From contig VXMJ01000020.1 in the NCBI GenBank assembly GCA_009841145.1, forward strand, positions 87,128-151,127: a DNA stretch of 64,000 nt. The letters are read 5' to 3'. Of this stretch, positions 28,277-45,345 are shown in pieces. The stretch is from Caldilineaceae bacterium SB0661_bin_34 (GTDB taxonomy: Bacteria; Chloroflexota; Anaerolineae; Caldilineales; Caldilineaceae). The notes beneath the pieces were generated by a model. The model saw only the letters and a program-made list of their open reading frames with translations. It had not been told where the DNA came from and did not search any database. How positions within the stretch are numbered: position 1 is the first letter of the stretch; each line of letters begins with the position of its first letter. Both the position numbers and the translations under genes were made by a program.

Positions 28277-28707
28277 GCTCTCGTTTTTCCTGTCCTTGGC
28301 TTGACGGCAACCCCTGGTTCCGTTTCTCAAAACCTGCCGGTTTCAGGCAACTTCGCTCCTGGTAGATCAGAGCCGGGTTGCATCCCCTGCAACTCCAGGT
28401 CGGGTGAAGCCGTCTCCACCCACCCCCGCCTGGCTTGCTCCGCGAGCAGGGCATCAGCCAGTGCAGCCTTGTCCCGAAGCAAACGCAAGTCGCCTGGGAT
28501 GGACGGATCGGAGCTGACCAGGAACTCTGAACCGTCACACACCCCCATCCCGTTGCACCATTCAGGCAATATCCTTCTTGAAGATCCCTTGCAAGATCCG
28601 AATGCATGGTGATGGACAACACAAGTGATGGAGACAACCGGGCCTTGAACGGGGACAAACTCATAATCGAAGGGCAGGCAGGTACCGGAGCCTACCCCGC
28701 CAATGCC
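28277..28707 (+). other. Leader of the MmeI-like gene
   Basis: About 430 bases without a recognisable gene. An in-frame ATG at 28606 would lengthen the following protein by 34 residues, but these are not family-like. No controller-protein gene or C-box repeat was seen. Confidence 0.35.
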
Positions 28708-31548
28708 ATGACACCACACGACTTTATCGACAAGTGGCGCGGGTCGGAATTGAAGGAGAGTTCCGGCAGCCAAGAGCACTTCATCAACCTGTGCCATCTG
28801 CTGGGTGAACCCACACCAGCCGAAGCAGACCCGACCGGTCAGACCTACTGCTTTGAGCGCGGTGCGCGCAAGGATTCGGGCCGGGCGGGATGGGCCGACG
28901 TGTGGAAGCGGGGCCACTTCGCATGGGAGTACAAGGGCAAGCATGCCAATCTCGATAGGGCCTTTGATCAATTGCGGCAGTACGCCCTGGCCCTCGAGAA
29001 TCCCCCGCTGCTGATCGTCTCGGACATGGTTCGGTTCCGCATCCGCACCAACTGGACCAACAGCGTCAGTGAGACCCACGAGTTCGAGCTGGAGGACCTG
29101 ACCCGTGCCGAGGTTCGGGAGAAACTCAAGTGGGCAATGTCGGAACCCGAGCGTCTGCGTCCGGGTGTCAGCCGCCAGATGCTTACCGAGCAAACTGCAA
29201 CGACGTTCGCGACCCTGGCTCAAACCTTGCGGCAACGCGGCAACGATCCCAGGGTAGTGGCGCAGTTCGTGAACCGGCTCGTGTTCTGCATGTTTGCCGA
29301 GGACGTGGACTTACTGCCGGACAACATGTTCACGCGCATGCTGGAACGGGCAGTCCAGACACCCAACAACTTTGTGCGATACGCCCAGCAGCTCTTTCGA
29401 GCGATGGCAGAAGGCAGCGAAGTAGGGTTCGAATCAGTAGCTTGGTTCAACGGTGGACTGTTTGACGACGACACCGCTTTGCCCTTGGAGAAAGCCGAAA
29501 TCACCACGGTGCTGGAAACGGCCTCCCTCGACTGGGCGGATATCGATCCCGCCATTCTAGGCACGCTGTTCGAGCGCGGTCTCGATCCCGACAAGCGTTC
29601 GCAACTGGGGGCGCACTACACGGGCCGCGACATGATCATGCGGATTATCAAACCGGTGGTCTCCGATCCCTGGCTGGCGGAGTGGGAGGCAACCAAGACG
29701 GACATTCAGCGCCATCTGGAACGGGCAGAATCAGCCAAGACGGCATCGACCCGCAACCGACGCCGCGGGCAAGCGGACAGTGCCCTCAACACCTTTCTGG
29801 AACGGCTCAGGAAGTTCACCGTCCTGGATCCGGCGTGCGGCTCGGGCAACTTCCTCTATCTGGCACTCCATGCCCTCAAGGATCTGGAACATCTCGTTCA
29901 GTTGGAGGCGGAGGAATTGGGCCTTGCACCTGGACTTCGGTTTGTGGGACCCGTCAACGTCAAGGGCATTGAGATCAACCCCTATGCCGCCGAACTGGCC
30001 CGGGTTTCCGTTTGGGTCGGAGAGATCCAGTGGATGCGCCACAACGGTTTCCCCGTCTCCCGAGATCCCATCCTGAAACCTCTGGACACCATCGAGTGCC
30101 GTGATGCACTCATCAACACGAACAGGACCGAATATGAGTGGCCCGAAGCAGACGTAATTGTGGGCAATCCTCCATTCCTGGGTGACAAACTCATGCGTGG
30201 CCGGCTGGGCGACGACTATGTTGATGCACTTCGCCAACTGTACGGGGATCAGGTCCCGGGAGGTGCCGACCTCGTCTGTTTTTGGTTTGCCAAAGCTACC
30301 CAGTCACTGGCCAAGGCCCGGACACACCGAGCCGGGCTTGTCGCGACCAATTCGATACGCGAAGGCCGCAATCGAACCGTGCTGGACCGCATCGTACAGC
30401 AGGCAATCATCTTCGACGCGTGGTCCGATGAACCCTGGGTGTTGGATGGCGCGGCCGTTCGCGTTTCACAGGTTTGCTTTGGAGCCAAAGCTGACAGAAA
30501 ACCTCAGAGCATCGTCTTGAATGGTCAACGTGTGGACTGTATTCATGCGGATCTGACAGCAGACACGTTTGACCTAACGAGAGCGACCAGACTCAAGAGC
30601 AACTCTGGGGTTGCATTTCGGGGGAATTCAAAAGCGGGAGCCTTCGATATTCCTGGGGATCTGGCACGGGAATGGCTGCAACTCCCCGCCAATCCAAACG
30701 GACGGACGAATGCGGACGTACTGAAGCCCCTGGTCAACGGAGCTGATCTGATGGGCCGATCGTCTGATCGCTGGATCGTCGATTTTGGTCCATCCATGAG
30801 CGAAGAGGAGGCTGCACTCTACGAAGTGCCCTTCTCCCATGTCGTGCACAAGGTCAAGCCATCACGCCTGAGGAACCGAAGAAAGAGCCGGCGGGAACGT
30901 TGGTGGATACACGGTGAGGCCCGCCCAAACATGTGGCGTGCGATTCAGGAGCTTCCTCGTTTCATCGTTACCCCGGAGACTTCCCGCCACAGGGTGTTTG
31001 CATGGCTGGACAGGGGTTCGTGTCCAGACCACCAACTGATTGTCATTGCCCGTGACGACGACGCGGTATTGGGGATCTTGCATAGCCGATTCCACGAAGC
31101 TTGGTCGCTTCGATTGGGATCAACCTTGGAAGATCGTCCCCGGTACCCCACTGCCGCGGCATTTTATACGTTTCCCTTTCCCGATGGGCTCAACCTCAAC
31201 GTACATACGGATGGAAGCATGATGGCCCCACGCGCGCTTGCAATCAAGGATGCAGCCAGGAACTTGGTAATACTGCGCGACCGCTGGTTAAACCCACCCG
31301 AATGGGTTGAGTGGATCGAGGAACCCGTACCTGGCTACCCGAAGCGACCGGTGCCGCGTAACCCCTCCGCAGCTTCTGCCCTGAAGCAGCGAACGTTGAC
31401 CAAGCTTTATAACGAGCGGCCTGCATGGCTGTCCCATGCCCACGAAACTTTGGATACCGTTGTGGCAGAGGCATACGGATGGCCCGTGGACATCTCGGAG
31501 GACGACGCTCTCGCAGCACTTCTAGCTCTCAACCTGGAACGCTCCTGA
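28708..31548 (+). CDS. MmeI-like (type IIL/IIG) restriction-methyltransferase
   Basis: A single 946-aa chain that should cut and methylate DNA. The N-terminus MTPHDFIDKWRGSELKES is typical of the MmeI group, followed by the nuclease signature D64-X9-E74-Y-K76 (ADVW...WEYK), the same D-X9-EXK spacing as MmeI. A helical spacer leads to the methyltransferase core: motif I DPACGSGNFLYLAL (about 374-387) and motif IV NPPF (487-490), the adenine-N6 type. The target-recognition region (about 640-800) and C-terminal helices follow. Such enzymes modify one strand and need no separate S or R subunit. Being next to an Avs-like gene supports a defence role. ATG 28606 is an alternative start. Confidence 0.87.
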   Translation: MTPHDFIDKWRGSELKESSGSQEHFINLCHLLGEPTPAEADPTGQTYCFERGARKDSGRAGWADVWKRGHFAWEYKGKHANLDRAFDQLRQYALALENPPLLIVSDMVRFRIRTNWTNSVSETHEFELEDLTRAEVREKLKWAMSEPERLRPGVSRQMLTEQTATTFATLAQTLRQRGNDPRVVAQFVNRLVFCMFAEDVDLLPDNMFTRMLERAVQTPNNFVRYAQQLFRAMAEGSEVGFESVAWFNGGLFDDDTALPLEKAEITTVLETASLDWADIDPAILGTLFERGLDPDKRSQLGAHYTGRDMIMRIIKPVVSDPWLAEWEATKTDIQRHLERAESAKTASTRNRRRGQADSALNTFLERLRKFTVLDPACGSGNFLYLALHALKDLEHLVQLEAEELGLAPGLRFVGPVNVKGIEINPYAAELARVSVWVGEIQWMRHNGFPVSRDPILKPLDTIECRDALINTNRTEYEWPEADVIVGNPPFLGDKLMRGRLGDDYVDALRQLYGDQVPGGADLVCFWFAKATQSLAKARTHRAGLVATNSIREGRNRTVLDRIVQQAIIFDAWSDEPWVLDGAAVRVSQVCFGAKADRKPQSIVLNGQRVDCIHADLTADTFDLTRATRLKSNSGVAFRGNSKAGAFDIPGDLAREWLQLPANPNGRTNADVLKPLVNGADLMGRSSDRWIVDFGPSMSEEEAALYEVPFSHVVHKVKPSRLRNRRKSRRERWWIHGEARPNMWRAIQELPRFIVTPETSRHRVFAWLDRGSCPDHQLIVIARDDDAVLGILHSRFHEAWSLRLGSTLEDRPRYPTAAAFYTFPFPDGLNLNVHTDGSMMAPRALAIKDAARNLVILRDRWLNPPEWVEWIEEPVPGYPKRPVPRNPSAASALKQRTLTKLYNERPAWLSHAHETLDTVVAEAYGWPVDISEDDALAALLALNLERS

Positions 31549-31585
31549 GCAGACGCGTCGTCATGGACATGAAAGAACTCGTCGA

Positions 31586-31616
31586 CACTGTTTCACTTTC
31601 GTTGAAAACCGTTCAG
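31586..31616 (+). repeat. Left terminal inverted repeat of the IS
   Basis: CACTGTTTCACTTTCGTTGA and the following 11 bases match the reverse complement of 32755-32785 with two mismatches. The transposase stop codon (31613-31615) lies inside it. Confidence 0.85.
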
Positions 31617-32719
31617 GTGGACCTGAATAGCTCCTTTTGCACGGTCCTGGTTGGCCGGCCGGCTTCACGCCAGGTGGCCGGCCAGCAAGTGCAGGAAGGC
31701 CTGTGCCCCTGCGGCGTCTTCAGGCCGCGGGCCAGCCGCGCCTGGGGCTTGAAGCGTCCAAACCATCCCTCCAGCAGGTTCGTACTGGAGGGGATGGAGG
31801 GGTCGCGCACGTAGCGTATGAGGTCGTTCCAGCGCTCCATGACATACTCCACCAGGGCCAGCACGGGTGGTGACGGCTGGATCACGCCCTGGTGGGCCCA
31901 CTCGCAGCAGACCAGCAGCAGCTGGCCGCCCCACAGAGGCAGTTGGCACACCCGTTGCACCATCCCCCGTAGCACGGTTGCGTCCGCCCGGGTCCGCAGG
32001 CCCGTGCGCAGGTGCTGCAGCCGCCGGCGCACCGTGCGCCGCATGTGCACCACGCACAGCTGCCGGTCCAGCCCGCAGCCCTGCAGGGCCTTGCGGAAGG
32101 CGGGGTCGTCGTCGGTGACCAGTGTGTGCACGCCGCGGACCTCCAACTCCCGGAAATAGGCCGTCCAGTTGAAGCCCGACCCCGTGCGGCGTAGGTCGCA
32201 CGGGCGACCGTCGGTGTCCAGGACCACGGCCACCGGCTGCCGCCGGCCCTCCAGCGGCAGCCAGGTCTCGCCCACCAGGACCACCCCGAGCAGCTTCTCC
32301 GTCGTGTCCCAAGGTGCCTCCGCCTGCCACCGCTGCACATCCCGCCACAAGCTGGCGGGGCTGACGAAGCAGCCCAGGACCTCCAGGCTGGCCGCGGTCG
32401 CGCGCAGGCTGACGCCGAGCACGTACAGGCTCATCAGGATCTCCTGCCAGGGCCGCGTGCGCTGCTAGCGGGTCACTCCGTCCGGCGGACGCGAGTGTGT
32501 GCGGCCGCAGGTCTGGCAGCGCCAGAGCTGCACGCGGCAGGGCCCCAGCAGCAGCAGATGGCGCTCGTAGCAGCCGTTGCGCCAAAAGGCGCGTCGGCCG
32601 CAGTAGGGACACGCCTCCGGCGGACCGGGGTCCGCGAGTTGACGCGCGGGATGGTCAAGAGGGACTACGGTAAAAGAAAAGACATGACGAGAAGCCCTTT
32701 TCTTGGTTGAATGTGTCAA
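31613..32719 (-). pseudogene. IS transposase interrupted by an in-frame TAG
   Basis: The N-terminal part has a zinc ribbon (CPYCGRRAFWRNGCYERHL, then RCQTCGRTHSRPP). After a TAG at 32465-32467 the same frame continues QRTRPWQEILMSLYVLGVSL into a DDE core: VLDTDGRP, HTLVTDDDPAFRKAL and NLLEGWFGRFKPQARLARG give the three acidic residues. Nothing else is broken and the repeats survive, so the stop is probably recent (for instance CAG to TAG) or is read through at low level. The start codon is uncertain: TTG 32719 is the first in-frame candidate inside the inverted repeats. The C-terminal ~20 residues reach into the left inverted repeat. Confidence 0.75.
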
Positions 32720-32754
32720 ACCAAGGCTACAGGGCCTCTTGTCTCGTTCCGGGA

Positions 32755-32785
32755 CTGAACCGTTTTCAACGAAAGTAAAACAGTG
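32755..32785 (-). repeat. Right terminal inverted repeat of the IS
   Basis: CTGAACCGTTTTCAACGAAA plus the next 11 bases form the inverted partner of 31586-31616, two mismatches in 31. Confidence 0.85.
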
Positions 32786-32787
32786 CC

Positions 32788-33280
32788 CCTTCTGACACAG
32801 AAGTGCACGTTCGTGCCCACTTGTTGCTACAATGGGAAGACTGACGCCCTGAATATCCGGGACCTCGCGCGCCATAGCCAAGTGTTCCTGCCGCCGCCTC
32901 ACTATACCTAAGAGAATGAGGATGAACGCGAGTTGTTGCAACCAACGGGCCCGCGACCGGCTCCAGAGCCGAGACCGATGTTGGTGACCATCCTACGAGG
33001 GCAGTCGAATTGAGCTCCAACGCTTGCTCAGTACACCACCCTAGGACATCCCCTCGTTTTTGGCGATCCAACGCTGTGCCACGAAAATTTCCATGAGCGC
33101 AAATTTTTCACCAACATGCGGTTTCCGTCGGAACAAGACCCAGCATAAGAATTCCCAGTACACTCCAGACGTTAGGTCCAGAACCAACAAACCCGTTTGC
33201 CATCGAGGTTTCCAAATGGCCAGCCGAGCACATTGTTAGAATACCATTAAGAAAACATTACCTGAACTATACAAGGTATC
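32788..33280 (+). other. AT-richer leader before the Avs-like gene
   Basis: About 490 bases with no gene. Composition falls from the GC-rich surroundings to AT-rich DNA from about 33060. A TATACA hexamer (about 33262) with TTAAGA 15 bases upstream is a possible but imperfect promoter; AAGG precedes the ATG by five bases. Confidence 0.4.
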
Positions 33281-36200
33281 ATGAATTCCTCAGTGAACCA
33301 AAACATTACCACCGAAACATCAACAAGCTTAGGCCGCACCGCACCAGGAGAAGGCGAACGCGGAGCTGCCGCTGGTTACTACAAACAATATCAATATTCT
33401 GCAGTCATCATCCTCAAGCAACTCAGGCATGGCCAACTCGATTGGATACGCGTAGCAGATCCTCAGGCAGGTCGCGTAGACGACATTTTGATCGGAACAG
33501 CAGAACGGATTGACGCATACCAAGTGAAAACCGAGCAATATCCCGGCCTTTTCACTTTTAACGACTTGACAACCCCCAAAGGCAAACCGCCATTGATCAC
33601 GCAATTGGCACAAGGATGGTTTACACTGCGCGAGCGATATCCCAACAAATTGGTGGTAGTCCATCTGGTAACCAACCAGACACCGTCAAATTCTCCCAAT
33701 GCCAACATCCCACTAGGTCCAACTCAGCCGACACCGAAACACTTCGCAGCGTTTTTGCACCAAGTTTGGGAACCAGCCCATCGCACGCGTATGGACTCCG
33801 ACATCAACATCCCTGATGAATGGTTACACGCGTGGAATGCACTCCAGCAACAAAGTGACCTTCCCGCAATTGCTTTCGACAATTTCGTCCGGGATTGCAA
33901 ATTGGAATTCAGGGCTAGACCGCATCTAGACATAGACATACCATCCACGCGAGAGCAGCAATTTGCAACCGAAGCGGTAGATAATATCGCGAACTTGATT
34001 TTTTCAACCGTAGCCGGCCCCGAACATGAGATCGAGATGTCACGCGAGCAGTTGCTCGAACGGCTCAATTGGACTGACAATTTTGAATACAGAAGCAGTC
34101 ATCATTTCCCTTTGCAAAATCACATTTATCAAGAGATTGAATCTTCTGCAACCGAACTCATGGTTTCCATTGAAACCTATGCTGGAGGTTACATTGCCGT
34201 GATGGGTTCACCTGGCTCCGGCAAGTCAACCTTATTAACTAACATTCGCACAAGATTAAAACTTCGTTGGATTTCATATTACGCATACATTCCAGATGAC
34301 CCACATTCTCGGAATCTCCGCGGCGAGTCAGTGAGTTTTTTGCACGACGTAACCCTTGCACTAGAACGAAGTGGATTTCAGGTTGGGATTACTCCAAATC
34401 GATTCGACCGAAGTCTACTGCTTGAAAGATTTCATCGACTACTCAAACAGTTGAATGAGGACTGGCGCACAACTGGACGCAAGACTGTCATAGTGATTGA
34501 TGGGCTTGATTTTATTGAACGCGAACTCTCACCAACTCAATCGTTATTGAATGACCTGCCTGATCCCGATCAAGTACCGGACGGAGTATATTTCGTTCTC
34601 GGCACTCAAACTGATACACTGTTGAAACCTAATATACGAGCCATGTTGCACCGCAAATGCCAACCTGGCCGCACAGTCTACATGTCTCCACTGACACGTC
34701 CTCAAGTAAATGAAGTGGTTGATGCTGCCAATTTATCTACTGAATTGGACGTCACACAACGACGGCGAATATATGATGTATCAGATGGACATCCGCTGTA
34801 TTTGAACTATTTGATCAAGGAAATTAGGTTGCGTAAAAATCCAACAGCACTCGTGGAGACTCTTCAATCAGCTACACAGTATAGTGACGACATTGAGACT
34901 GTCTATTATGGTCATTGGCAGCGGTTTTCTGATGACATGACATTGGTAATACTTCTTGGAATGTTTGCTAGAGTCAAAGGCGTAATAGATATCACTTGGG
35001 TCAGAACATGGGCCGATTTTCCAACACTTCAGAAACTCATTAGGCAGTTTTCGCATTATTTCAGAATTGAAAACTCAACTCGCTGGTATTTTTTTCATGA
35101 CAGTTTTCGGCAATTTTTGACGGACAGAACCTGCGAAGCCCCTCTTGGCGACTCCGATTCTGACGTAGATCGTCATTACCATGCAAAGTTGGCGTTGCAC
35201 TGCGCAGACTCGGCACCCGAACATATATTACAACGATGGAACGAGTTGCATCATCGCGCTGCAGCGGGTGAGCACAGCAAAGTGCTTACGTTAGCCACTC
35301 AACTGCACTTTCGAACACAGTTCTTGGAGTTCCGGCCATTGGATGCTATCCGGGCGGACATCCTCAACTCAATTGCGGTAGCTGTGGAGTGTAAAGACTT
35401 GATCGCCATGATCCGTCTTTGTTTGGTAGGGTCCGAGATGTGTCAAAGGGGGGAATATCATCAGCCTGCAAGACTTGCCAGTGTGTTGTTAAGAACTGCA
35501 TCGCATGAGTTGGCACTGTTGCAATTGCGGGATGGGTTGCGGTTGCGCGTTGACGCGGTGACGGCGCTTAGGGTTGTTAAGCCGCTCATTCAGGCTGGTC
35601 TGACCTCAGAAGCTCGGCGTATTTTCGAAATTGCGGAACCACTTGACTTGCTGGCTGGTGTTGCATCGAATTTGACAAATGAACCTTTTGACCAGAATCC
35701 ATCTGATTTGCGCCAAGTGCTACAAGAGTGGGTGAAAGCAGCGGCTTGTGTCAAAGATGTTGCTAAGACCATCGATGTGATCCAAGCCATTCCGTTTGAC
35801 AGTCCTGACATGGTGGAGTTGCTGGAAATGAAGCTGTCGAGCGGATTCTGTGGGCGACTGCTTTTTGATTTCGGTGTGGAGCTGATAGCCCAAGAACGTT
35901 CGTCCGACTTAGACATTGTGCTGAATACACTTGATTCAGGCGATCCACAGTACCGTGAACCACTATTTTGGCTCCTGTTCCGAGCTTACGAACAAAGCTA
36001 CAATGTAGGTAAACTTAGGGAAGCATCAAGTTACTGCACACGTTTGTTGGGATTAGATCGCCAGTGTTTCCACAAGGAGCATTACATTGCACTTGCTGAT
36101 TGTGCGTGTCGCTTGCGGCAGAGCTACGACCTCGCAACAGGTTTGTTGACTAACGCAGTAGCAGCATCAGATGCCCAAGTGCATGACATGACCTGGAGCG

Positions 36201-39200
36201 AGTTGCCTTCGCATGACTTCCTGTTCAGGAAATTGCGCTTGATGCAATATCTGAGATTCAAAGGCCATTTGCCAGACGATTTCGCTACCACAACCGTCTC
36301 TGGCTCTGATTCTGACATTCGAGTCGAACGCGCGCTGAATGCCATTGCGTACATTTGGGAGTCTGCATTGGCCGGCCAGAAGATGGCCGCTTCGTCCATA
36401 CGCCAATGGGCATGGCTGCTTCGCCTGTACTACCACCACCCTGTGGACATGGCAAACCATGAACAGTCACCCTTTCAGATGTATGGAAGCAAAACCAAGT
36501 TTTATCAATTGCTTGTGATGGCGGTTGCTCCCCATGGTACCGATGCACTTGGCGAACTTCGGACAATGTTTGTCCAAGAGTGGAACGACCCGCGCCAATC
36601 TCAATTTTGGCCGCCAGAGGTCAAGCGATCACTGATCTGCGAATTCATCGGAGTTGCAGACTCCAACAATTGGATCGTCGAAACATTGTGGGACATTGAC
36701 GAAACTATTCCGAGCGAACAAGACATACAAAGTTGGGTAGAGGAAGGTTTCAACCAGTCCGAGGCGTGGATTCGCTGTGGCAATTTTGACAACGGGATGA
36801 ACTCCCTGCGCAAGGCGCTAGAAAAAAGTTTCGGTGTTGGATATCGAAAAGATTATCAGATGGAGCGGTGGATTGACCGTCTCGACAAAGTCAATCGCGT
36901 CGAGCCACATCTTGCGCTTGATCGGATTCGCAGTTTTTCCGTTGGCACAATGCACCTTTACGAGAGTACTGAAGGCAGAGCTGCCTACCGAGCCGCGCGG
37001 CAGTTACTTGCAATTGCGTTCCGACATAGTCCTGCATGCGCACCAGAGTTGCTCACTTGGTTTGAACATCAGAACCTCTTGAGCCATTGGGGGGGGATTA
37101 GCGTCCTCATCGAGGAAGCAATGCAGTTAGCAACGCCACCATTGCCGCAAGTCTCACAATTGGTGACCGAGTTCTTGCTACCATACAATGCAACAGCCGA
37201 TTCCCGCGTTTTGCGTGACTTGGTGACACAGCTTAGCGCGCAGTTGAACCACAGCGAAGTCATTAAGGGAATACGGCTCCTTGTCAACCGAGTGAGATCG
37301 GACACAGTCCCATCCCAACGGTCCGAATGGTTGAGCGGCTTGGTCGAAGGTTTGGCTCGGGCGAACATTGCAAATTCAGACGCCGGACTGACAATCCAAG
37401 AAGTCGAAGCCGCGAGCCATTCCGATGTAATTTCAAACACTTTGGAGTTGGAAGGGGAACCTGAACATTTGCAAGTAGATGAAGTACTCACACGAGTGAA
37501 CTCAGTATTGGATGTCCGCGAATTGCTGGCTAAAGAGACGCACAACTCATATTTCAATTGGTTGCCTGTGGTAAAGGAGTTATGCCATTCGTTACGCGAT
37601 GTTGATGACTTGACCGAACTAGCGCAGACGTTCGGATGTCAACGCAACGCAAGTAGGATCCTCACTGCAATCAGCGCGCGCTTGGACCAGTTGGGGTTTA
37701 AACAACACGCGTGGCAAATTGGGACAGATGCACTCAACCGATCAAGTTTCTTGGGGTGGTATATCTGGTCAGAGGAAACCAGAGTTGAAACATTTCGAGC
37801 ATTGAACCAGATCGACAGAACCCGCACCTCTGAATTGATTTGGCAAACTTTGCTAACGGATCTCAGAGAACATTTCGACATTGTTGTTGCAATTATCAGT
37901 GCTTTAGATGACATATGTGAGCTGCTGGACCCCACAGCAAGATACGACGTTATCTGGCCAGAGATTGACATACATATTAAGCCACTATTACAAACTACAG
38001 ACTTTGATCGTCTCCCAACGTTATTTCAGCATGATGTCTCTGAAGTGCTCCCTGGTGAGATGTTTCTTGAATTGATTCTTGGGCATATTGATCATCCTTG
38101 TCAGGTTCTGCAACAAGCGACGCAGCGGAGTATCTGTAATCTCCTCCTGGATAATGCAAGCCAAGTTTTTGAGGTTGTTCAAACCGGTTTGTCTCTTTCA
38201 GAAACACATCAAGAAGGAATCCTCATCGCATTGGATGCTGTTAGTTTGTCCAATCCCAACATCATTGATTTCTTTCGGAGCCAAATATATGCACTTTATA
38301 ATTCTCCAAATTTTCAGATCAGATCAATAGCAAAGTCAATCGGGCAGCGGTTGAATTGGCCAGCTCCAAGTCACGCCAGGAAGTTGGAATCTCCCCATCC
38401 TACATATATGCTGACGTTTCCCGATCATGAGTTTGTCGACTTGGCGCACACTGGGCCTAACGATGATCCATCCCAATTCATATCTTTATTTCAAACCGAA
38501 ATCACGCGCATTGCTACAGCTGCCAATGTTCCGATAGAGAATGTAGTCCAACGTGTGATCAGCATCATTCATTCTCTGGTCCCACATCCGTCAGTGTTGT
38601 CTATGCAAGCAGAGAAAGAGCTTCAATCAACTTTGAATTCGGTTGGAGTACGTTTAGCATATCACAGACCTCGATTTTGCATTGCTCGCAGGGCTATATT
38701 TCACACTCTTGCTGAGTTGATAGATTGTGGCATGGTCACTGCTCAGTCGGCTGGCGATATCGGAGTTGACTTAAGGACATACGATCCCTACTTCGTACGG
38801 GCAGAATCCAAGCAACGCCCTTCGCAAATCTCGCGAATGTCAGTTTCGTCGATTAGGTCCAGCCCTAAAGATTGGGTTATGAGTGCGAGTGATTCCTTAC
38901 CTCATATTGTGTGGTGCCCAAATGGCAACCGCAAATTGGTGGCTGAAGTCACTTGTCTTAGCAAGAAAAGTATTGGACGTTCATCAATTGAAGAGCGCTA
39001 TAGCGCTTTGGTAGTTGAGCAGGAATTTCCCCTCGGTCAAGGAAAAAGCCTAGACAGTATATTTGCTTCGGCGACTAACGCAATTGTGACTGAGTACCCA
39101 TCGTTGAGTGGGACTCGGAAGCCCCATCATATTATTGTTCGCAACCAGACGTTTGGTTTTAACTCGCCGGGCTCCAATTGGCTTGCACTAGATCCCATCG

Positions 39201-39484
39201 TGGGCTATCAATGTGGTTGGAAAGTTTCCGATTCTGGCATGTTCAGATGGGTTGATTGTGATAATAATGTTATGGTTGAAAGTATTTGGTGGCGGGAAGG
39301 AAGGTCATCAGTGTATTCGGCGTCAGAGTATGCTGATGAAACAAGCGAAGGTTGGCTGGTTGTTGCTTCGGAACCAGCTTTGGCTCAAATCCAGCGCGAT
39401 TGTGGTCAGGTAGTGAGGAAGGCGATTGTTGTAAGGCAATTCGATGAACGTGGGAATGTGGTCAAGCACCGAGCGGATGCTTAA
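33281..39484 (+). CDS. Avs-like STAND NTPase with N-terminal Cap4-like nuclease
   Basis: A single 2,067-residue protein. Residues 30-200 resemble the Cap4-type PD-(D/E)XK nuclease of antiphage proteins: GYYKQYQYSAVIILKQL, then D67-D68 and Q81-V-K83 (VDDILIG, AYQVKTEQ). Residues 295-560 are a STAND/AAA NTPase: Walker A GSPGSGKST (309-317), Walker B VIVIDGLD (403-410), then a winged-helix-like part (WYFFHDSFRQFL). The remaining ~1,450 residues are helical, repeat-like sensor sequence, ending in a more beta-rich domain after about 1,890. Size and order match Avs (AVAST) pattern-recognition proteins, which tetramerise on phage terminase or portal and then cut DNA. Its GC is visibly lower than that of neighbours, indicating transfer. 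The exact Avs type is not assignable by eye. Confidence 0.8.
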   Translation: MNSSVNQNITTETSTSLGRTAPGEGERGAAAGYYKQYQYSAVIILKQLRHGQLDWIRVADPQAGRVDDILIGTAERIDAYQVKTEQYPGLFTFNDLTTPKGKPPLITQLAQGWFTLRERYPNKLVVVHLVTNQTPSNSPNANIPLGPTQPTPKHFAAFLHQVWEPAHRTRMDSDINIPDEWLHAWNALQQQSDLPAIAFDNFVRDCKLEFRARPHLDIDIPSTREQQFATEAVDNIANLIFSTVAGPEHEIEMSREQLLERLNWTDNFEYRSSHHFPLQNHIYQEIESSATELMVSIETYAGGYIAVMGSPGSGKSTLLTNIRTRLKLRWISYYAYIPDDPHSRNLRGESVSFLHDVTLALERSGFQVGITPNRFDRSLLLERFHRLLKQLNEDWRTTGRKTVIVIDGLDFIERELSPTQSLLNDLPDPDQVPDGVYFVLGTQTDTLLKPNIRAMLHRKCQPGRTVYMSPLTRPQVNEVVDAANLSTELDVTQRRRIYDVSDGHPLYLNYLIKEIRLRKNPTALVETLQSATQYSDDIETVYYGHWQRFSDDMTLVILLGMFARVKGVIDITWVRTWADFPTLQKLIRQFSHYFRIENSTRWYFFHDSFRQFLTDRTCEAPLGDSDSDVDRHYHAKLALHCADSAPEHILQRWNELHHRAAAGEHSKVLTLATQLHFRTQFLEFRPLDAIRADILNSIAVAVECKDLIAMIRLCLVGSEMCQRGEYHQPARLASVLLRTASHELALLQLRDGLRLRVDAVTALRVVKPLIQAGLTSEARRIFEIAEPLDLLAGVASNLTNEPFDQNPSDLRQVLQEWVKAAACVKDVAKTIDVIQAIPFDSPDMVELLEMKLSSGFCGRLLFDFGVELIAQERSSDLDIVLNTLDSGDPQYREPLFWLLFRAYEQSYNVGKLREASSYCTRLLGLDRQCFHKEHYIALADCACRLRQSYDLATGLLTNAVAASDAQVHDMTWSELPSHDFLFRKLRLMQYLRFKGHLPDDFATTTVSGSDSDIRVERALNAIAYIWESALAGQKMAASSIRQWAWLLRLYYHHPVDMANHEQSPFQMYGSKTKFYQLLVMAVAPHGTDALGELRTMFVQEWNDPRQSQFWPPEVKRSLICEFIGVADSNNWIVETLWDIDETIPSEQDIQSWVEEGFNQSEAWIRCGNFDNGMNSLRKALEKSFGVGYRKDYQMERWIDRLDKVNRVEPHLALDRIRSFSVGTMHLYESTEGRAAYRAARQLLAIAFRHSPACAPELLTWFEHQNLLSHWGGISVLIEEAMQLATPPLPQVSQLVTEFLLPYNATADSRVLRDLVTQLSAQLNHSEVIKGIRLLVNRVRSDTVPSQRSEWLSGLVEGLARANIANSDAGLTIQEVEAASHSDVISNTLELEGEPEHLQVDEVLTRVNSVLDVRELLAKETHNSYFNWLPVVKELCHSLRDVDDLTELAQTFGCQRNASRILTAISARLDQLGFKQHAWQIGTDALNRSSFLGWYIWSEETRVETFRALNQIDRTRTSELIWQTLLTDLREHFDIVVAIISALDDICELLDPTARYDVIWPEIDIHIKPLLQTTDFDRLPTLFQHDVSEVLPGEMFLELILGHIDHPCQVLQQATQRSICNLLLDNASQVFEVVQTGLSLSETHQEGILIALDAVSLSNPNIIDFFRSQIYALYNSPNFQIRSIAKSIGQRLNWPAPSHARKLESPHPTYMLTFPDHEFVDLAHTGPNDDPSQFISLFQTEITRIATAANVPIENVVQRVISIIHSLVPHPSVLSMQAEKELQSTLNSVGVRLAYHRPRFCIARRAIFHTLAELIDCGMVTAQSAGDIGVDLRTYDPYFVRAESKQRPSQISRMSVSSIRSSPKDWVMSASDSLPHIVWCPNGNRKLVAEVTCLSKKSIGRSSIEERYSALVVEQEFPLGQGKSLDSIFASATNAIVTEYPSLSGTRKPHHIIVRNQTFGFNSPGSNWLALDPIVGYQCGWKVSDSGMFRWVDCDNNVMVESIWWREGRSSVYSASEYADETSEGWLVVASEPALAQIQRDCGQVVRKAIVVRQFDERGNVVKHRADA

Positions 39485-39559
39485 TAAGCAAGCTGTACTC
39501 TCTTTCTCGATTGACAGCAAAATCGCGTCCAGTTAGGATAGAATTTCCTCGGTGTGCTG

Positions 39560-40094
39560 GAATCGAGACACACGTCCTGCACAACGGACCCCGAAGCGCC
39601 CCTGCTGGACAAGGTGTTGTGCAAGGAGGTCTGGCTCGCGTTCCTGGGCCATGCCCTGTGGAGGACCGTAATGGTCTGCTGATGGACCTCACGGTCAGCA
39701 CGGCCGAAAGGGAAGCGGTGTTGGAGCTCCTGGATGGGCTACAAGAACGGGCCTACCGACCGCGCACGCTGGGTGCCGATCGCGGCTACGACTCCAAGGA
39801 CTGCGTGCGGGACATCCGGGCGCGACGGGTGACCCCGCATGTGACCCGGAAGAAGCACTTGACCATCGACGGTCGCACGACGCGGCATACCGGCTATGCC
39901 GTGAACCTGCGCCTCCGCAAGCGGGTGGAGGTGGTCTTCGGCTGGATGAAGACGGTGGGCGATTTGCAGCGCACCCGCTACAGAGGCGTGGACCGTACCG
40001 GGTGGGTCGGCTACCTGATGGCGACCGCCTACAACTTGCATGACCAAACTCCTGGCCGAGCCGGAGACCGCGGCGGGCCCACAAGAGCTTTAGG
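39560..40094 (+). pseudogene. IS5-family transposase remnant, frameshifted
   Basis: Three frame pieces give parts of an IS5-type DDE transposase: SCTTDPEAPLLDK and KEVWLAFLGHAL (39575-39660), then VEDRNGLLMDLTVSTAER, GADRGYDSKDCVRDIRAR and RVEVVFGWMKTVGDLQRTR (39655-40040), then MTKLLAEPE to a TAG at 40094. The N-terminal third is missing and there are two frameshifts. It lies directly downstream of the Avs-like gene, so it marks a past insertion at the edge of the low-GC segment. Confidence 0.8.
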
Positions 40095-40413
40095 GGCCTA
40101 CGGACCCCAAAAAAACTCACACGTGCGAACCACGCTGGGGATTTCAGGGTCCATCGGACTGCCTAAACACCGCTTCCGCGCACCTTCGGGTTGCCGATGT
40201 CTTCCAAAACCCATTCTTCAGCAGCCTGTTAGTGCACCAGGAGAGACTGAGCGCAAACAAGGAAGCTGGGTTGGAATGAACAGAACCCTAGCGGATCCCG
40301 TCGAATGGGCCTGCGATTACCCTGATGGTACGCCGTGGGTGGATAGTGACCCATCACTCCTTCCTGATAGAATCGGGCAGTAGTGTCGGCCACCGGTATT
40401 GGGCAAGAGAGCC
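40095..40413 (+). other. IS tail and spacer before the TA-like pair
   Basis: The first part probably is the 3' end of the IS5-type remnant (frame VADVFQNPFFSSLL to a stop near 40227). The segment 40187-40227 has an inverted near-copy at about 45175-45216. The remainder holds no recognisable gene. Confidence 0.5.
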
Positions 40414-40977
40414 ATGACCGAACACAATGCGCCCCGCCAGGCAAAATCGCAGACACAGAAAACGACGCATATTCATTATCCGGCACTGGATATTGGAGCG
40501 CCCACCCACATCACCTACACCCATGGTGGGTTGATGATGGTCAACTGGCATGAATGCACCTACGTGGAAGCGGCACGGAGGCTAAACCAACTGGGGTCAA
40601 GGACGGTGCGGGGACGGCTGTGGACGGCCTCGAACCTGCGATCCTTTACCCGTCGTCACGGAATTACCCGAGAATTGCACATGCCCCCCATGCAGAAAGT
40701 GGTGGATGTGCCGGGCATACCCAAGGAATACGCCATACCTTCCCTGGTGCCGGTTCTGGAGGTGACCGACGGCCTGCGGTCGCCTCACGTCATCACCCGC
40801 ATCATTGAGAAAGGCGACGAGGATGCCCTGGCGTGCTTGCGCGATGCCGTCCGCTCCGACCCTGTGGTGCGCTCCGAAGTATTGGCCCTGGCACCCGACC
40901 TGCTGGATCACCCATGGGCTGGTCCGGAGTATCAGGAGTTCCTGGATCTTGCCCGCACCTCGGGCCATTCCGACTGA
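40414..40977 (+). CDS. Probable antitoxin partner with resolvase-like helix region
   Basis: A 187-aa protein not recognised as a known family member. Residues about 45-85 (EAARRLNQLGSRTVRGRLW followed by TASNLRSFTRRHGI) resemble the helical region of serine recombinases that reads ...LN..G..T.rGr.WT..nvr..LR, a plausible DNA-binding element. The C-terminal part (VITRIIEKGDEDALACLRDA) is helical. It overlaps the next, nucleotidyltransferase-like gene by about 29 bases. That arrangement, small DNA-binding protein followed by an AbiEii-type nucleotidyltransferase, is typical of toxin-antitoxin pairs; the assignment rests on this context. Confidence 0.6.
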   Translation: MTEHNAPRQAKSQTQKTTHIHYPALDIGAPTHITYTHGGLMMVNWHECTYVEAARRLNQLGSRTVRGRLWTASNLRSFTRRHGITRELHMPPMQKVVDVPGIPKEYAIPSLVPVLEVTDGLRSPHVITRIIEKGDEDALACLRDAVRSDPVVRSEVLALAPDLLDHPWAGPEYQEFLDLARTSGHSD

Positions 40978-41794
40978 TCCGCAGCACTGGCTGCACGTCC
41001 TGCAGGCTGCAGAACGGCTGCAGCGTGCCTTGGACGGCATCTATGTGGTCGGTGGGACAGCGGCGGCCCTATGGGCGGGACACCGCACATCCCATGATGC
41101 TGATCACTACATGCCGGACCTGGAACACAGGTTTGACGAGGTATTGGACAGATTGGAAACGCTGCCCGGATGGATCACGGTCCGGATACGCAGGCCCCAT
41201 CTGATCCTGGGACAACTGGATGGTGTCATGGCGGGGGTGGCGCAACACCCCACCGTCGCTTCCGGTTCCATGCAGGTAGAGACCACCCAAGTCACCACCC
41301 CGCAGGGTTTGACGATTCGTCTCCCCACCTTTCGCGACACCCTACTTCTCAAAAGCCGTCTGCTGATGACGCGCAACATGGCCCGGGATTACGTTGACTA
41401 CGTTTATCTGGCCATGAGTTTGGAAGATGCCAATTTGGAACAGGCCTTGGCCCCTGCCAAGCGATACAAGCTTCCGTCCTCGGGTCCATGGTCGCACGAC
41501 GGCTCCGAACGTCCCATAGCCTATCTGGAGGAATTGGGGCTTCGTCTTGTTCGTCCCACACCAAAGGACACACGCCAGATCCGATTGCACTGGCATCGGT
41601 TCCAGTCCCTCAATACAGGGGCCTCGTTCCCGTCCTGGGATGAAATCGCATCCTATTGCCAAACCGAGGGCACCCGTGTGTTGGAGGTTTATCGTGCATG
41701 GAATATCTGTGGACCATGCGGGTCCGGGCACGGGCATGAAGGCAGTGACGATGGCGAACTCTCCAGTGACGATACTGACGGGAAGAACACGTAA
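40949..41794 (+). CDS. Nucleotidyltransferase of the AbiEii type (putative toxin)
   Basis: Contains VVGGTAAALWAGHRTSHDAD, the GG...R.S.D.D signature of minimal nucleotidyltransferases of the AbiEii/AbiGii toxin family, followed by LRLPTFRDTLLLKSRLLMTR-like context (IRLPTFRDTLLLKSRLL) where the lysine of the family lies. AbiE-type toxins transfer nucleotides to tRNA and cause abortive infection. The first in-frame start after the antitoxin core is TTG 40949, overlapping the upstream gene; the open frame goes further up (40805) but is only its shadow. The acidic tail GSDDGELSSDDTDGKNT is unusual. Confidence 0.72.
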   Translation: MPAPRAIPTDPQHWLHVLQAAERLQRALDGIYVVGGTAAALWAGHRTSHDADHYMPDLEHRFDEVLDRLETLPGWITVRIRRPHLILGQLDGVMAGVAQHPTVASGSMQVETTQVTTPQGLTIRLPTFRDTLLLKSRLLMTRNMARDYVDYVYLAMSLEDANLEQALAPAKRYKLPSSGPWSHDGSERPIAYLEELGLRLVRPTPKDTRQIRLHWHRFQSLNTGASFPSWDEIASYCQTEGTRVLEVYRAWNICGPCGSGHGHEGSDDGELSSDDTDGKNT

Positions 41795-42105: not shown

Positions 42106-42529
42106 ACGGGTCCCGCAAACGGAACGGAAGGGCACAGGCCGGCACACGCCGTCATCCTTGACTTGCAGCACGAGAACGCGTCGAACGGATCCGACACCTA
42201 TGTTCTGGTCGGAACACCGTCAGGCAGTGCGTAGAAGGTTACCCCCAGTGCACCTCGCCCTGGACCTACACCAGGTCACAAGCGGAGATTCCGAGTGACA
42301 ACGGTCTCATAGGCGCTGGTTGCAGCTCCCAACTCTCGCTAACAGAAGATCTGAAATTCCCCTCGCACTGACCTCCCTGAACACACCTAACGCAACAACT
42401 CGATACGGGAATCGTCTTATATGGATAAGCAGAGCTACCCCTCCTGTAGGTCGCTCTTGGCCTACAGTTTCCTCTCTTCTGGACTTCACAATGATTTTGC
42501 TTGAAGGCAATCCACCCACTACCTTGAGA
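42106..42529 (+). other. Leader of the LysM-PA14-ankyrin gene
   Basis: About 420 bases of IS66-adjacent and then lower-GC DNA. The downstream gene's frame is open from 42320, with ATGs at 42491 and 42530, but those residues are not domain-like. No promoter could be fixed. Confidence 0.35.
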
Positions 42530-45160
42530 ATGCGCTTGGAGAGCGTGTCCGCTAGTCGCAGCAGCATTCAATTGCGGGTCTTGGGGCTGATTGTTGCGGC
42601 CCTGTTGCTCTTTGCCCATCAAAACGTGGTGGCTGAAGCTCAGAATTCCCATCAGACCCACATCGTTCGGACAGGCGACACCTTGGTCTCCATTGCAGAG
42701 CAATACAAAACGACAGTAGCCCAGTTAAGGCAGCTCAACAATCTGTCGGAAACTGAGGCTCTGTACGTTGGCCACACGTTGATCGTGTCCCAGGTAGGCG
42801 TCTCTACCCCGCCGTCCACTCGCTCGGTGGTGCACTCAGCATGCCCTGTTTTGCACACGGTTCAGAGAGGCGAAACATTATGGGCCATTGCCAACCGCTA
42901 TGACGTAAGCCTGACCGGCATTGCCCAAGCCAACAACCTATCGAACCATCGCCTGATTCGAGTCGGACAATCGCTTTGCATTCCGGGTACCACCAGTCAG
43001 CCGTCTCCTACTCCCGGGCGCACCGGACCTCAACCCCAACCCGGCACAGCCAGCTATACAGTGCTGGGTGGCGACACGCTCTTTTTGATTGCCCGCGCAC
43101 ACGGTGTTTCTGTGCAAGATCTGATCGAGGCCAATGGCATCACCGACCCGAGAAGGTTGTATCCCGGCCAGGTATTGCGGATTCCCGGTTCAAGCATGGT
43201 GGAAACAGGAAGTACCGGAACCACACCTGCTGACACCGATCCAACATCTGGTTTCTTTACGGTCCAGTTTTTCAACAACCTGAGCTTCACCGGATCCCCA
43301 GTCCTGACACAGCAAGTCGCACCAGGCACTCGCTTTGACTGGGGCTTGGCTGCTCCAGGCCCGCAGGTCAATGCCGATCACTTCACCGCCAGGCTGGAAG
43401 GCCAATTCAGTTTCGAAGAAGGCCTGCACCGTTTCAGCGTGACTGTTGACGACGGCATGCGACTGTATGTGGACAACAATCTGGTCCACGAAGCTTGGCA
43501 CGATCAGGCTGCCACCACCCATGAGGTCGATGTGCATTTGACGGCTGGCCTTCATCAGGTGCGTCTGGATTACTACGAACGGGCATCCTCTGCAAGTCTG
43601 TGGCTCCGTTGGCAACGGCTGACTCCTGGGTTGATTGCGGCCCCGCCATTACCCCCCGTTGCTCCTATGCCAGTGCCAAACCCTCCAGCCGATGCTTTCA
43701 ATCTGCAGTTTTTCAACAACGTGGACCTGAGCGGGCCACCTGTGCTAACCCAAGTCGCGCCAGTGGGAAAACGGTTTGACTGGGGTACAGGTTCCCCAGG
43801 TCCTCAAGTCCACAAGGACAATTTCAGTGCCCGCATGGAAGGTAACTTCCACTTCACTGAAGGCACCTATCGCTTTTTTGTAACCACTGATGATGGTTTA
43901 CGTCTATACATTGATGGTGAACTGGTGTTGGATGAATGGGGGGACTCGCCGGAGCTCACCTCCTATAAGGACATCGACCTGGCGTCGGGTTCGCATCACG
44001 TACTGCTGGAATATTACGAAAGTGGCGGCGTCGCGGTCATGTGGCTGCGTTGGCAACCTCTATTCCCCTCAAACACAAGGATTCCACAGACTGCTATCAC
44101 TCCTCCTACACCAGGTTCAGGCACTTACACTGAAGAAGACAAACGGGCATTGTTCCACGCCATTCTGAATAACGACATAGTGACGGTGCGTCGCATGATC
44201 GCCAGTACGGGATTTCCAAGGTTCCGCAACAGATTGAGCGGTACGGCCCTGCACTGGGCAGCCAGAGTGGATGCCTTGGAAATCATGGCCTTGCTACTAA
44301 CTTACCCTGAGGCGGACCCCAACGTTCGTTTTGACAATGCCAATTCAGACCCCTGGAACAAAAACCGGACCCCGCTTCATGAAGCTGCCACGCACGGCAA
44401 TGCGGCAATGTCGGAGCTGTTGCTTGCTCATGGAGCCGATCCTTCGCTTGCCACGAGAAAAGGTTTTACCGCTTTGCACTTTGCCGCGAGCAGCAAACAT
44501 ACGGATGTGGTTGAAATACTCCTGAAACACAATGCCGATCCCAATGTTCAGGAACAGTTTTCAGGGAATTCCCCCTTGCACAGCGCCACAAGATGGAAAC
44601 CCGATCCAGAAGTTCTGGAAATCCTGTTGAGACATCGAAGGATCAGACCCAATCTGAGGAATCACGATGGGCAAACAGCCTTGCATGAGACAATTGTTTT
44701 CGGGCACAGAGCACAGTTGGCGATTTTGCTCGACCATCCTGAGGTCGATCCCAATATAAGGGATGACTCCGGTCGGACCCCACTCTATCAGGCTGTGGCA
44801 AACGAGAACAAGGAACTTGTGAAGTTGCTACTGGACAACAGGGAAACAGATCCCAATAAACGGAATGACATAGGATTCACCGCACTCTACCGGGCCGTGT
44901 ATGATGAAAACGAGGATCTTGTGGAGTTGTTACTTGACCACCGGAAAACAGATCCCAACATCGACACCAAGAAGGAGTGGACTCCATTGTTCAGGGCTGT
45001 TTCGAATGGTGACCGCGACATTGTTAAGCTATTGCTGGAACATGATGATATTGATGCTGAAATCGAAACTCAAGGTTGGACGCCACTGATGTTGGCTTAC
45101 CACGAAGGCTTTGACAGAATCGCAAGATTGTTGGAAAGGCACCTTGGCTACCAGGGTTAG
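42530..45160 (+). CDS. Secreted LysM-PA14-ankyrin repeat protein
   Basis: An 876-aa exported protein: signal peptide (SSIQLRVLGLIVAALLLFA, cleaved near AEAQ); three LysM domains (43-86, 108-152, 176-219; HTVQRGETLWAIANRYDVS is typical) for peptidoglycan or chitin-like glycans; two PA14 beta-barrel domains (242-362, 389-509; TVDDGMRLYVDN and TTDDGLRLYIDGEL carry the DDG); and seven or eight ankyrin repeats (about 535-870; GTALHWAARVDALEIMALLL, TPLHEAATHGNAAMSELLLA). It should sit on the cell wall and bind proteins and glycans. Ankyrin proteins outside the cell often act in host interaction. ATG 42491 (13 residues longer) is an alternative start. Confidence 0.9.
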   Translation: MRLESVSASRSSIQLRVLGLIVAALLLFAHQNVVAEAQNSHQTHIVRTGDTLVSIAEQYKTTVAQLRQLNNLSETEALYVGHTLIVSQVGVSTPPSTRSVVHSACPVLHTVQRGETLWAIANRYDVSLTGIAQANNLSNHRLIRVGQSLCIPGTTSQPSPTPGRTGPQPQPGTASYTVLGGDTLFLIARAHGVSVQDLIEANGITDPRRLYPGQVLRIPGSSMVETGSTGTTPADTDPTSGFFTVQFFNNLSFTGSPVLTQQVAPGTRFDWGLAAPGPQVNADHFTARLEGQFSFEEGLHRFSVTVDDGMRLYVDNNLVHEAWHDQAATTHEVDVHLTAGLHQVRLDYYERASSASLWLRWQRLTPGLIAAPPLPPVAPMPVPNPPADAFNLQFFNNVDLSGPPVLTQVAPVGKRFDWGTGSPGPQVHKDNFSARMEGNFHFTEGTYRFFVTTDDGLRLYIDGELVLDEWGDSPELTSYKDIDLASGSHHVLLEYYESGGVAVMWLRWQPLFPSNTRIPQTAITPPTPGSGTYTEEDKRALFHAILNNDIVTVRRMIASTGFPRFRNRLSGTALHWAARVDALEIMALLLTYPEADPNVRFDNANSDPWNKNRTPLHEAATHGNAAMSELLLAHGADPSLATRKGFTALHFAASSKHTDVVEILLKHNADPNVQEQFSGNSPLHSATRWKPDPEVLEILLRHRRIRPNLRNHDGQTALHETIVFGHRAQLAILLDHPEVDPNIRDDSGRTPLYQAVANENKELVKLLLDNRETDPNKRNDIGFTALYRAVYDENEDLVELLLDHRKTDPNIDTKKEWTPLFRAVSNGDRDIVKLLLEHDDIDAEIETQGWTPLMLAYHEGFDRIARLLERHLGYQG

Positions 45161-45172
45161 GAAAGGTGATTG

Positions 45173-45345
45173 GCTCAAGGAAGCCACTGGCAGGCTGCGG
45201 AAGAATGGGTTTTGGATGACACCGGCCCCTACGCGCGGGTTGTCGAGATCGTCCCCTGGGGGCGGTGGCCCGTCCTTGGCACGGAAGTTCTTGAGGCTGG
45301 CGGCCGCCTCGCTCAGGGTGCCATCCACCCTGAGCAGGCCGCATG
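45173..45345 (-). other. Decayed coding fragment sharing a tail with 40187-40227
   Basis: The minus strand reads TLSEAAASLKNFRAKDGPPP then DDLDNPRV and VIQNPFFRSLPVAS. The last part matches, over about 40 bases, the segment VFQNPFFSSLL at 40187-40227 on the plus strand, which follows an IS5-type remnant. It may be the end of another IS copy or of a small mobile gene; I do not recognise the family. Confidence 0.4.

Follow-up and report, generated by a model that had tools for sequence, protein, structure and literature searches.

An Avs-like STAND protein with a predicted Cap4-type nuclease head from a Caldilineaceae genome, in an unnamed clade probably lying between Avs1 and Avs3

The window analysed here is a stretch of 64,000 nt from Caldilineaceae bacterium SB0661_bin_34, of the phylum Chloroflexota (GenBank assembly GCA_009841145.1, contig VXMJ01000020.1, positions 87,128 to 151,127 of the forward strand). 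An open reading frame (ORF) with an ATG start and no internal stops runs from 33281 to 39484 on its forward strand, and encodes an Avs-like protein, the single chain of 2,067 amino acids (aa) that a sequence-only reading of the window had proposed to be an Avs-type antiphage STAND protein. The motifs that reading had picked out (D67-D68, Q81-V-K83, GSPGSGKST at 309-317 and VIVIDGLD at 403-410) are all present at those residues. The gene is also visibly lower in GC than its surroundings, as had been claimed; its GC is 0.478 (0.473 at third codon positions, GC3), compared with 0.53-0.64 (GC3 0.57-0.81) in nine other genes measured nearby. The protein has the Avs plan in one chain, i.e. an N-terminal effector followed by a STAND NTPase and a long helical sensor (Table 1).

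Table 1. Features of the Avs-like gene and of its surroundings, in window coordinates.
Feature	Position	Strand	Evidence
Cap4-STAND Avs-like protein, 2,067 aa	33281..39484	+	ORF and translation; full-length collinear relatives
Effector, predicted PD-(D/E)XK (Cap4/Avs3-like) nuclease head, ~residues 1-210	33281..33910	+	AF2 topology; profile match to Avs3a N-terminus, probability 96%
Putative active site D67-D68 ... Q81-x-K83	33479..33529	+	D67, D68 and K83 invariant in 49; Q81 in 47/49
STAND/NACHT-like NTPase, ~residues 286-560	34136..34960	+	Avs1b: PADLOC E 1e-32, NCBIfam 4e-29; AAA_22 and NACHT
Walker A GSPGSGKST (309-317)	34205..34231	+	G309, G312, G314, K315 and S316 invariant in 49
Walker B VIVIDGLD (403-410)	34487..34510	+	D407-D410 invariant in 49
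Helical/winged-helix-like module (560-790), invariant H606-x-S608-F609	34958..35650	+	Profile match to Avs1b, probability 99%; conservation
Long alpha-solenoid sensor (790-1883)	35648..38929	+	AF2; residues 790-1790 match Avs1b 96.6%, Avs3a 97.3%
C-terminal beta-rich domain (1884-2067)	38930..39481	+	AF2; conserved residues; weak in-register match to Avs3a C-terminus
MmeI-like type IIL restriction-modification enzyme, single chain, upstream	28606..31548	+	Pfam MmeI_Mtase 2e-29
Transposase remnants (DDE_Tnp_IS66 match and zinc-ribbon ORF)	31613..32941	-	Remnants
IS5-family transposase remnant, directly following the Avs-like gene	39511..40383	+	NF033581 E 9e-23
AbiEii-like nucleotidyltransferase toxin, downstream, resident in sister genomes	40805..41794	+	Pfam AbiEii 6e-6
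Block with the Avs-like gene and flanking insertion sequence (IS) remnants	31553..40231	.	Unmatched in the three sister-genome loci read

AlphaFold2 (AF2) models were built with 46 sequences, in two halves (the first being residues 1-868), each with a mean predicted local distance difference test score of 85, and residue conservation was scored in 49 divergent full-length relatives. In the model of the head, residues 22-131 run a1-b1-b2-b3-a2-b4, the order found in PD-(D/E)XK nucleases; D67 and D68 immediately precede b2, while Q81 and K83 close b3. D67, D68 and K83 are invariant in all 49 relatives, together with the G, K and S of Walker A, D407-D410, H606, S608 and F609, and in the C-terminal part W1865, E1904, W1980, W1990 and G2007. 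Since they are invariant (47 of the 49 in the case of Q81), the motifs have not arisen by chance. Conservation along the family is highest in the nuclease and NTPase motifs and lowest in the sensor. The PD-(D/E)XK topology and the D...QxK motif at the N-terminus are those of Cap4/DUF4297 nuclease effectors. The predicted topology, the invariant residues and the match to the Avs3a head place the N-terminus in the PD-(D/E)XK superfamily, where the sequence-only reading had put it, and support the prediction that the head is a Cap4/Avs3-like nuclease.

The family was compared with bona fide Avs1b proteins having avs1a/avs1c neighbours, with Avs3a and Avs3a-like proteins, and with Avs2. E-values from profile-profile comparison with single templates are uncalibrated, and we therefore relied on controls using reversed and unrelated profiles. 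The family profile matched Avs3a from end to end (columns 5-2021 to 6-2059, 1,826 columns, probability 99.9%), with in-register matches in the head (96%), the NTPase (97%), the helical module (63%), the sensor (97%) and residues 1790-2067 (69%); residues 1870-2067 alone gave 1% only. The reversed profile gave 0.1% against whole-length Avs3a, and the sensor controls (reversed profiles, Avs2, Dsr1 and eight other STAND proteins) did not exceed 4.4%. The match to Avs1b covered 1,392 columns with a probability of 100%, beginning in the NTPase and stopping shortly before the sensor ends; neither the head nor the C-terminal region matched. When Avs1b and Avs3a were compared directly the match was confined to the NTPase and the adjoining module, so that the unnamed family links the two.

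Of the named types, Avs3a (AVAST type 3; 8dgc; NF041816) has the same order and length, i.e. a Cap4-type nuclease, STAND NTPase, long alpha sensor and C-terminal region, but is only ~14-18% identical in the alignments seen and its NTPase branches apart. Avs1b (AVAST type 1; NF041810, PDLC02159) has a homologous NTPase, following helical module and sensor. However, it carries a trypsin-like protease where the family protein has a nuclease head, it has no match to the C-terminal domain, and neither Avs1a (a metallo-beta-lactamase nuclease) nor Avs1c adjoins the gene at the window locus. Avs1b was nevertheless the sole Avs family matched by PADLOC and NCBIfam, over the NTPase region, in all eight members scanned; the bit score with NF041810 was 100.6 against a curated cut-off of 1500. 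The NTPase-containing half is similar in predicted fold to Avs4 (8dgf), but the match is weaker, the Avs4 protein is shorter, and it does not appear near the top of the list for the sensor half. In a Foldseek search of the PDB with residues 1-868 the Avs3-terminase complex 8dgc came first (E 1.4e-16) and the Avs4-portal complex 8dgf fourth and fifth (E 8.8e-7), with the folds of MalT and Apaf-1 further down the list. Comparison with Avs2 gave no sequence homology. Avs5 has a SIR2 head in place of the nuclease, and its model had no matches in the window's genome, in a search that matched nothing anywhere. We note that an Avs3a-like protein (E 3e-257 to NF041816) is encoded elsewhere in the window's phylum (L119:738-7220), and that a related genome (G137) also has one.

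In a tree of the NTPase plus module from 61 sequences (the family, Avs1b, Avs3, Avs2 and generic STAND proteins) 41 family sequences form one clade with support 99/99, apart from Avs1b (98/98), Avs3, Avs2 and the generic STAND proteins, although support for the deepest joins is weak and long branches come together. The nearest sequence to the window protein is from a SAR202 member of the Chloroflexota, with 47% identity in this region. The proposal of an Avs-type STAND protein is supported by the separation from generic STAND proteins, by Avs3 and Avs4 being the best fold matches, and by the defence genes found beside relatives. It had also been said that the sensor could not be tied to a named Avs type. 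The protein can be placed, however, within a broad unnamed clade related to both Avs1 and Avs3. On sequence comparison the best reading is that this clade lies between those two types.

Three relatives carry other heads. The protein of L091 (a Bacteroidia metagenome-assembled genome, MAG; L091:8163-15115) has the NTPase, sensor and C-terminal domain of the family with a trypsin-like protease head, and an overlapping gene upstream matches Avs1a at 2e-91. Judged by sequence, it is a hybrid in which an Avs1 effector module sits on the sensor chassis of the unnamed family. L093 has an NNH5 head (E 1e-39), while the head of L096 is hydrophobic and, on sequence alone, resembles a transmembrane segment. 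Both lie inside the Cap4-headed clade, and thus their heads were replaced. Modularity of the effector is known for Avs proteins. Nuclease-protease pairs are reported to have entered unrelated systems on repeated occasions (PMC12799240), and L091 may therefore have gained its pair instead of keeping an ancestral arrangement.

In the AF2 model residues 869-1883 are nearly all helical, in agreement with the sensor-like helical repeats that had been proposed, and strands begin at 1884. The sequence-only reading had noted a beta-rich end after about residue 1,890 that it did not recognize as part of the standard plan. The strands are there, but the domain is not clearly outside the Avs plan, as it is kept throughout the family and has a weak in-register match to Avs3a. 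It was seen in the unnamed family only; a sequence search of the PDB gave no matches, and among 400 genomes of the window's phylum none had the domain on its own. We rejected the idea that distantly related members, the E. coli version among them, have unrelated sensors, as profile hidden Markov models recover both halves of the sensor and the C-terminal domain.

An initial scan of genomes using this protein alone as query gave nothing useful, as did a single-sequence search of the PDB, while a profile search of the PDB returned P-loop and chance matches only. A later scan of species-level genomes with an alignment-based query recovered 184 relatives confirmed by tblastn, most of them full length and collinear, and 79 of the loci were read. 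Full-length collinear relatives occur in Chloroflexota, Pseudomonadota, Bacteroidota, Actinomycetota, Planctomycetota, Cyanobacteriota and other phyla, and there is one partial archaeal relative, in an Archaeoglobales MAG. The distribution is patchy and horizontal. A sample of 301 genomes of the window's phylum held a single further close relative (G245), and a search of the window's own bacterial family found no homologs; many relatives are plasmid-borne. The E. coli version, WP_072643907.1 at L030:7875-13940, is present as copies at least 99% identical in 11 of 5,426 genomes, nine chromosomal and two on plasmids. Phage records searched contained no homologs, and three IMG/VR contigs carry diverged relatives.

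On a Vibrio cholerae W6G plasmid (L022:9923-16070) and in V. rotiferianus (L066:9983-16125) the protein is encoded as two ORFs overlapping by a few bases, with both splits at the same sensor position, near residue 1250; this may reflect a pair of coupled subunits or else a frameshift. Plasmid copies in Vibrio and Klebsiella (L027:10997-12171 and L029:11123-12137) are truncated inside the sensor, beside IS elements, as though the gene were often lost or costly.

From its homology to known Avs proteins, we consider it highly probable that the gene is a single-gene Avs-type antiphage system, most likely sensing terminase, that would cut DNA and abort infection. The solenoid and the C-terminal beta domain would bind a conserved phage protein produced in infection. 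Homology of the sensor to those of Avs1 and Avs3 suggests that this is most likely the large terminase subunit, which is favoured because terminase is the activator of the Avs1 protein EpiAvs (PMC12799240) and because Avs3 was solved with terminase (title of 8dgc). On binding the ligand the STAND NTPase would load ATP and oligomerize, so bringing the predicted nuclease heads together. The heads would then cut both phage and host double-stranded DNA, and infection would be aborted. The oligomer formed by Avs3 and Avs4 is a tetramer.

Several observations weigh against this reading. The score of the head with Pfam Cap4_nuclease (PF14130) is below threshold (E 0.07-0.23, 12-14 bits against a gathering value of 26.2), which sets it apart from the recognized Cap4/DUF4297 effectors. 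The Avs3a model NF041816 has no matches in the window's genome at E 0.001, and the family is without the Avs3b partner gene that Avs3 loci carry (of the loci compared, L121 and L122 have a named avs3b, while L161, L163 and L164 have an overlapping downstream ORF). A Foldseek search with the sensor half gave generic alpha-solenoids only, with Avs3 absent from the top 50, and the ligand therefore cannot be read from the structure. Lastly, the control for neighbouring genes described below is a rough one, drawn from the window's phylum and not phylum-matched to the relatives.

The same STAND nuclease could respond to a different trigger, such as portal, a nucleus-forming phage protein, Ksap1-like factors or an incoming plasmid, and we regard this as a real possibility, a little below an even chance. 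According to PMC12931631, Avs1-4 recognize terminase, portal or Ksap1 and kill via nucleases, with JADA the ligand of Avs5, so that ligands do differ within Avs types. The confinement of the C-terminal domain to the unnamed family, the far lower conservation of the sensor relative to the NTPase and the number of plasmid-borne relatives point the same way; set against these is the homology of the sensor to Avs1 and Avs3, both reported or solved with terminase.

The clade is unnamed in current models and annotation, which are what our comparison covers. The protein might be a divergent Avs1 or Avs3 already within the original Avs surveys, and so just one more member. The full collinearity with Avs3a and the Avs1-like NTPase would suit this, and we judge it plausible, if somewhat the less probable outcome. 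However, the family forms a separate clade with no Avs1a/1c or Avs3b partner, and PADLOC, NCBIfam and PGAP (the NCBI annotation pipeline) name none of the Cap4-headed relatives read, yet do name Avs1a/b/c and Avs3a/b; where these relatives are annotated at all it is as 'ATP-binding protein' or 'hypothetical protein' only. The chances seem evenly balanced that the family is instead a widespread unnamed Avs type bridging Avs1 and Avs3, with a sensor detectably homologous to those of both, which do not detectably match each other when compared directly. A non-defence STAND regulator (MalT- or AfsR-like) lacking nuclease activity at its N-terminus is very improbable, since the MalT and Apaf-1 folds lower in the Foldseek list and the weak Cap4 Pfam score that might suggest it are opposed by the invariant PD-(D/E)XK residues, the natural exchange of the head for a protease with Avs1a, the best fold matches being Avs3 and Avs4, and the separate clade of generic STAND proteins.

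If the family does bridge the two types, Avs1 and Avs3 would share one ancestral sensor carrying exchanged effectors (Cap4, protease with Avs1a, NNH5 and transmembrane), and a ligand contact of another kind may be set by the C-terminal beta domain. One could then ask whether terminase sensing by Avs1 and Avs3 had a single origin. In prokaryotes, Avs proteins correspond to the NLR immune receptors. As the clade extends across many phyla and to an archaeon, and is missed by defence-annotation models, Avs-based immunity is probably under-counted. The natural swaps on one sensor and the version resident in E. coli make both ligand and effector directly testable.

The genes around the relatives are in keeping with a role in defence. 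Relatives adjoin Dsr1 and AbiEi/AbiEii, with Lit within ~6 kb. Among 149 proteins flanking relatives, restriction-modification components lead the PADLOC matches at 1e-15, while kinase-like and other generic models lead in a control set, 110 proteins taken from arbitrary places in genomes of the window's phylum. Given the choice of control, and as the two sets are compared by their leading models rather than by per-protein counts, we take this enrichment as supporting evidence only. No recurrent close partner gene was found beside the relatives.

At the window locus itself, the block at 31553-40231 has no match at the corresponding sites of three sister genomes. In G001 the MmeI and AbiE genes are ~0.3 kb apart; in G002 sequence matching window position 45332 begins ~1.1 kb past MmeI; and in G003 window position 28715 is joined to 40232, a deletion that has also taken most of MmeI. 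This is consistent with a recent gain of the block at a variable defence spot. The MmeI-like gene, beside the matching site in two of the sister genomes and truncated in the third, marks that spot. Beside the AbiE locus, at 42320-45160, there is an ORF of 946 aa with a lower GC of 0.534, in which LysM repeats, two PA14-like repeats and ankyrin repeats were recognized by eye.

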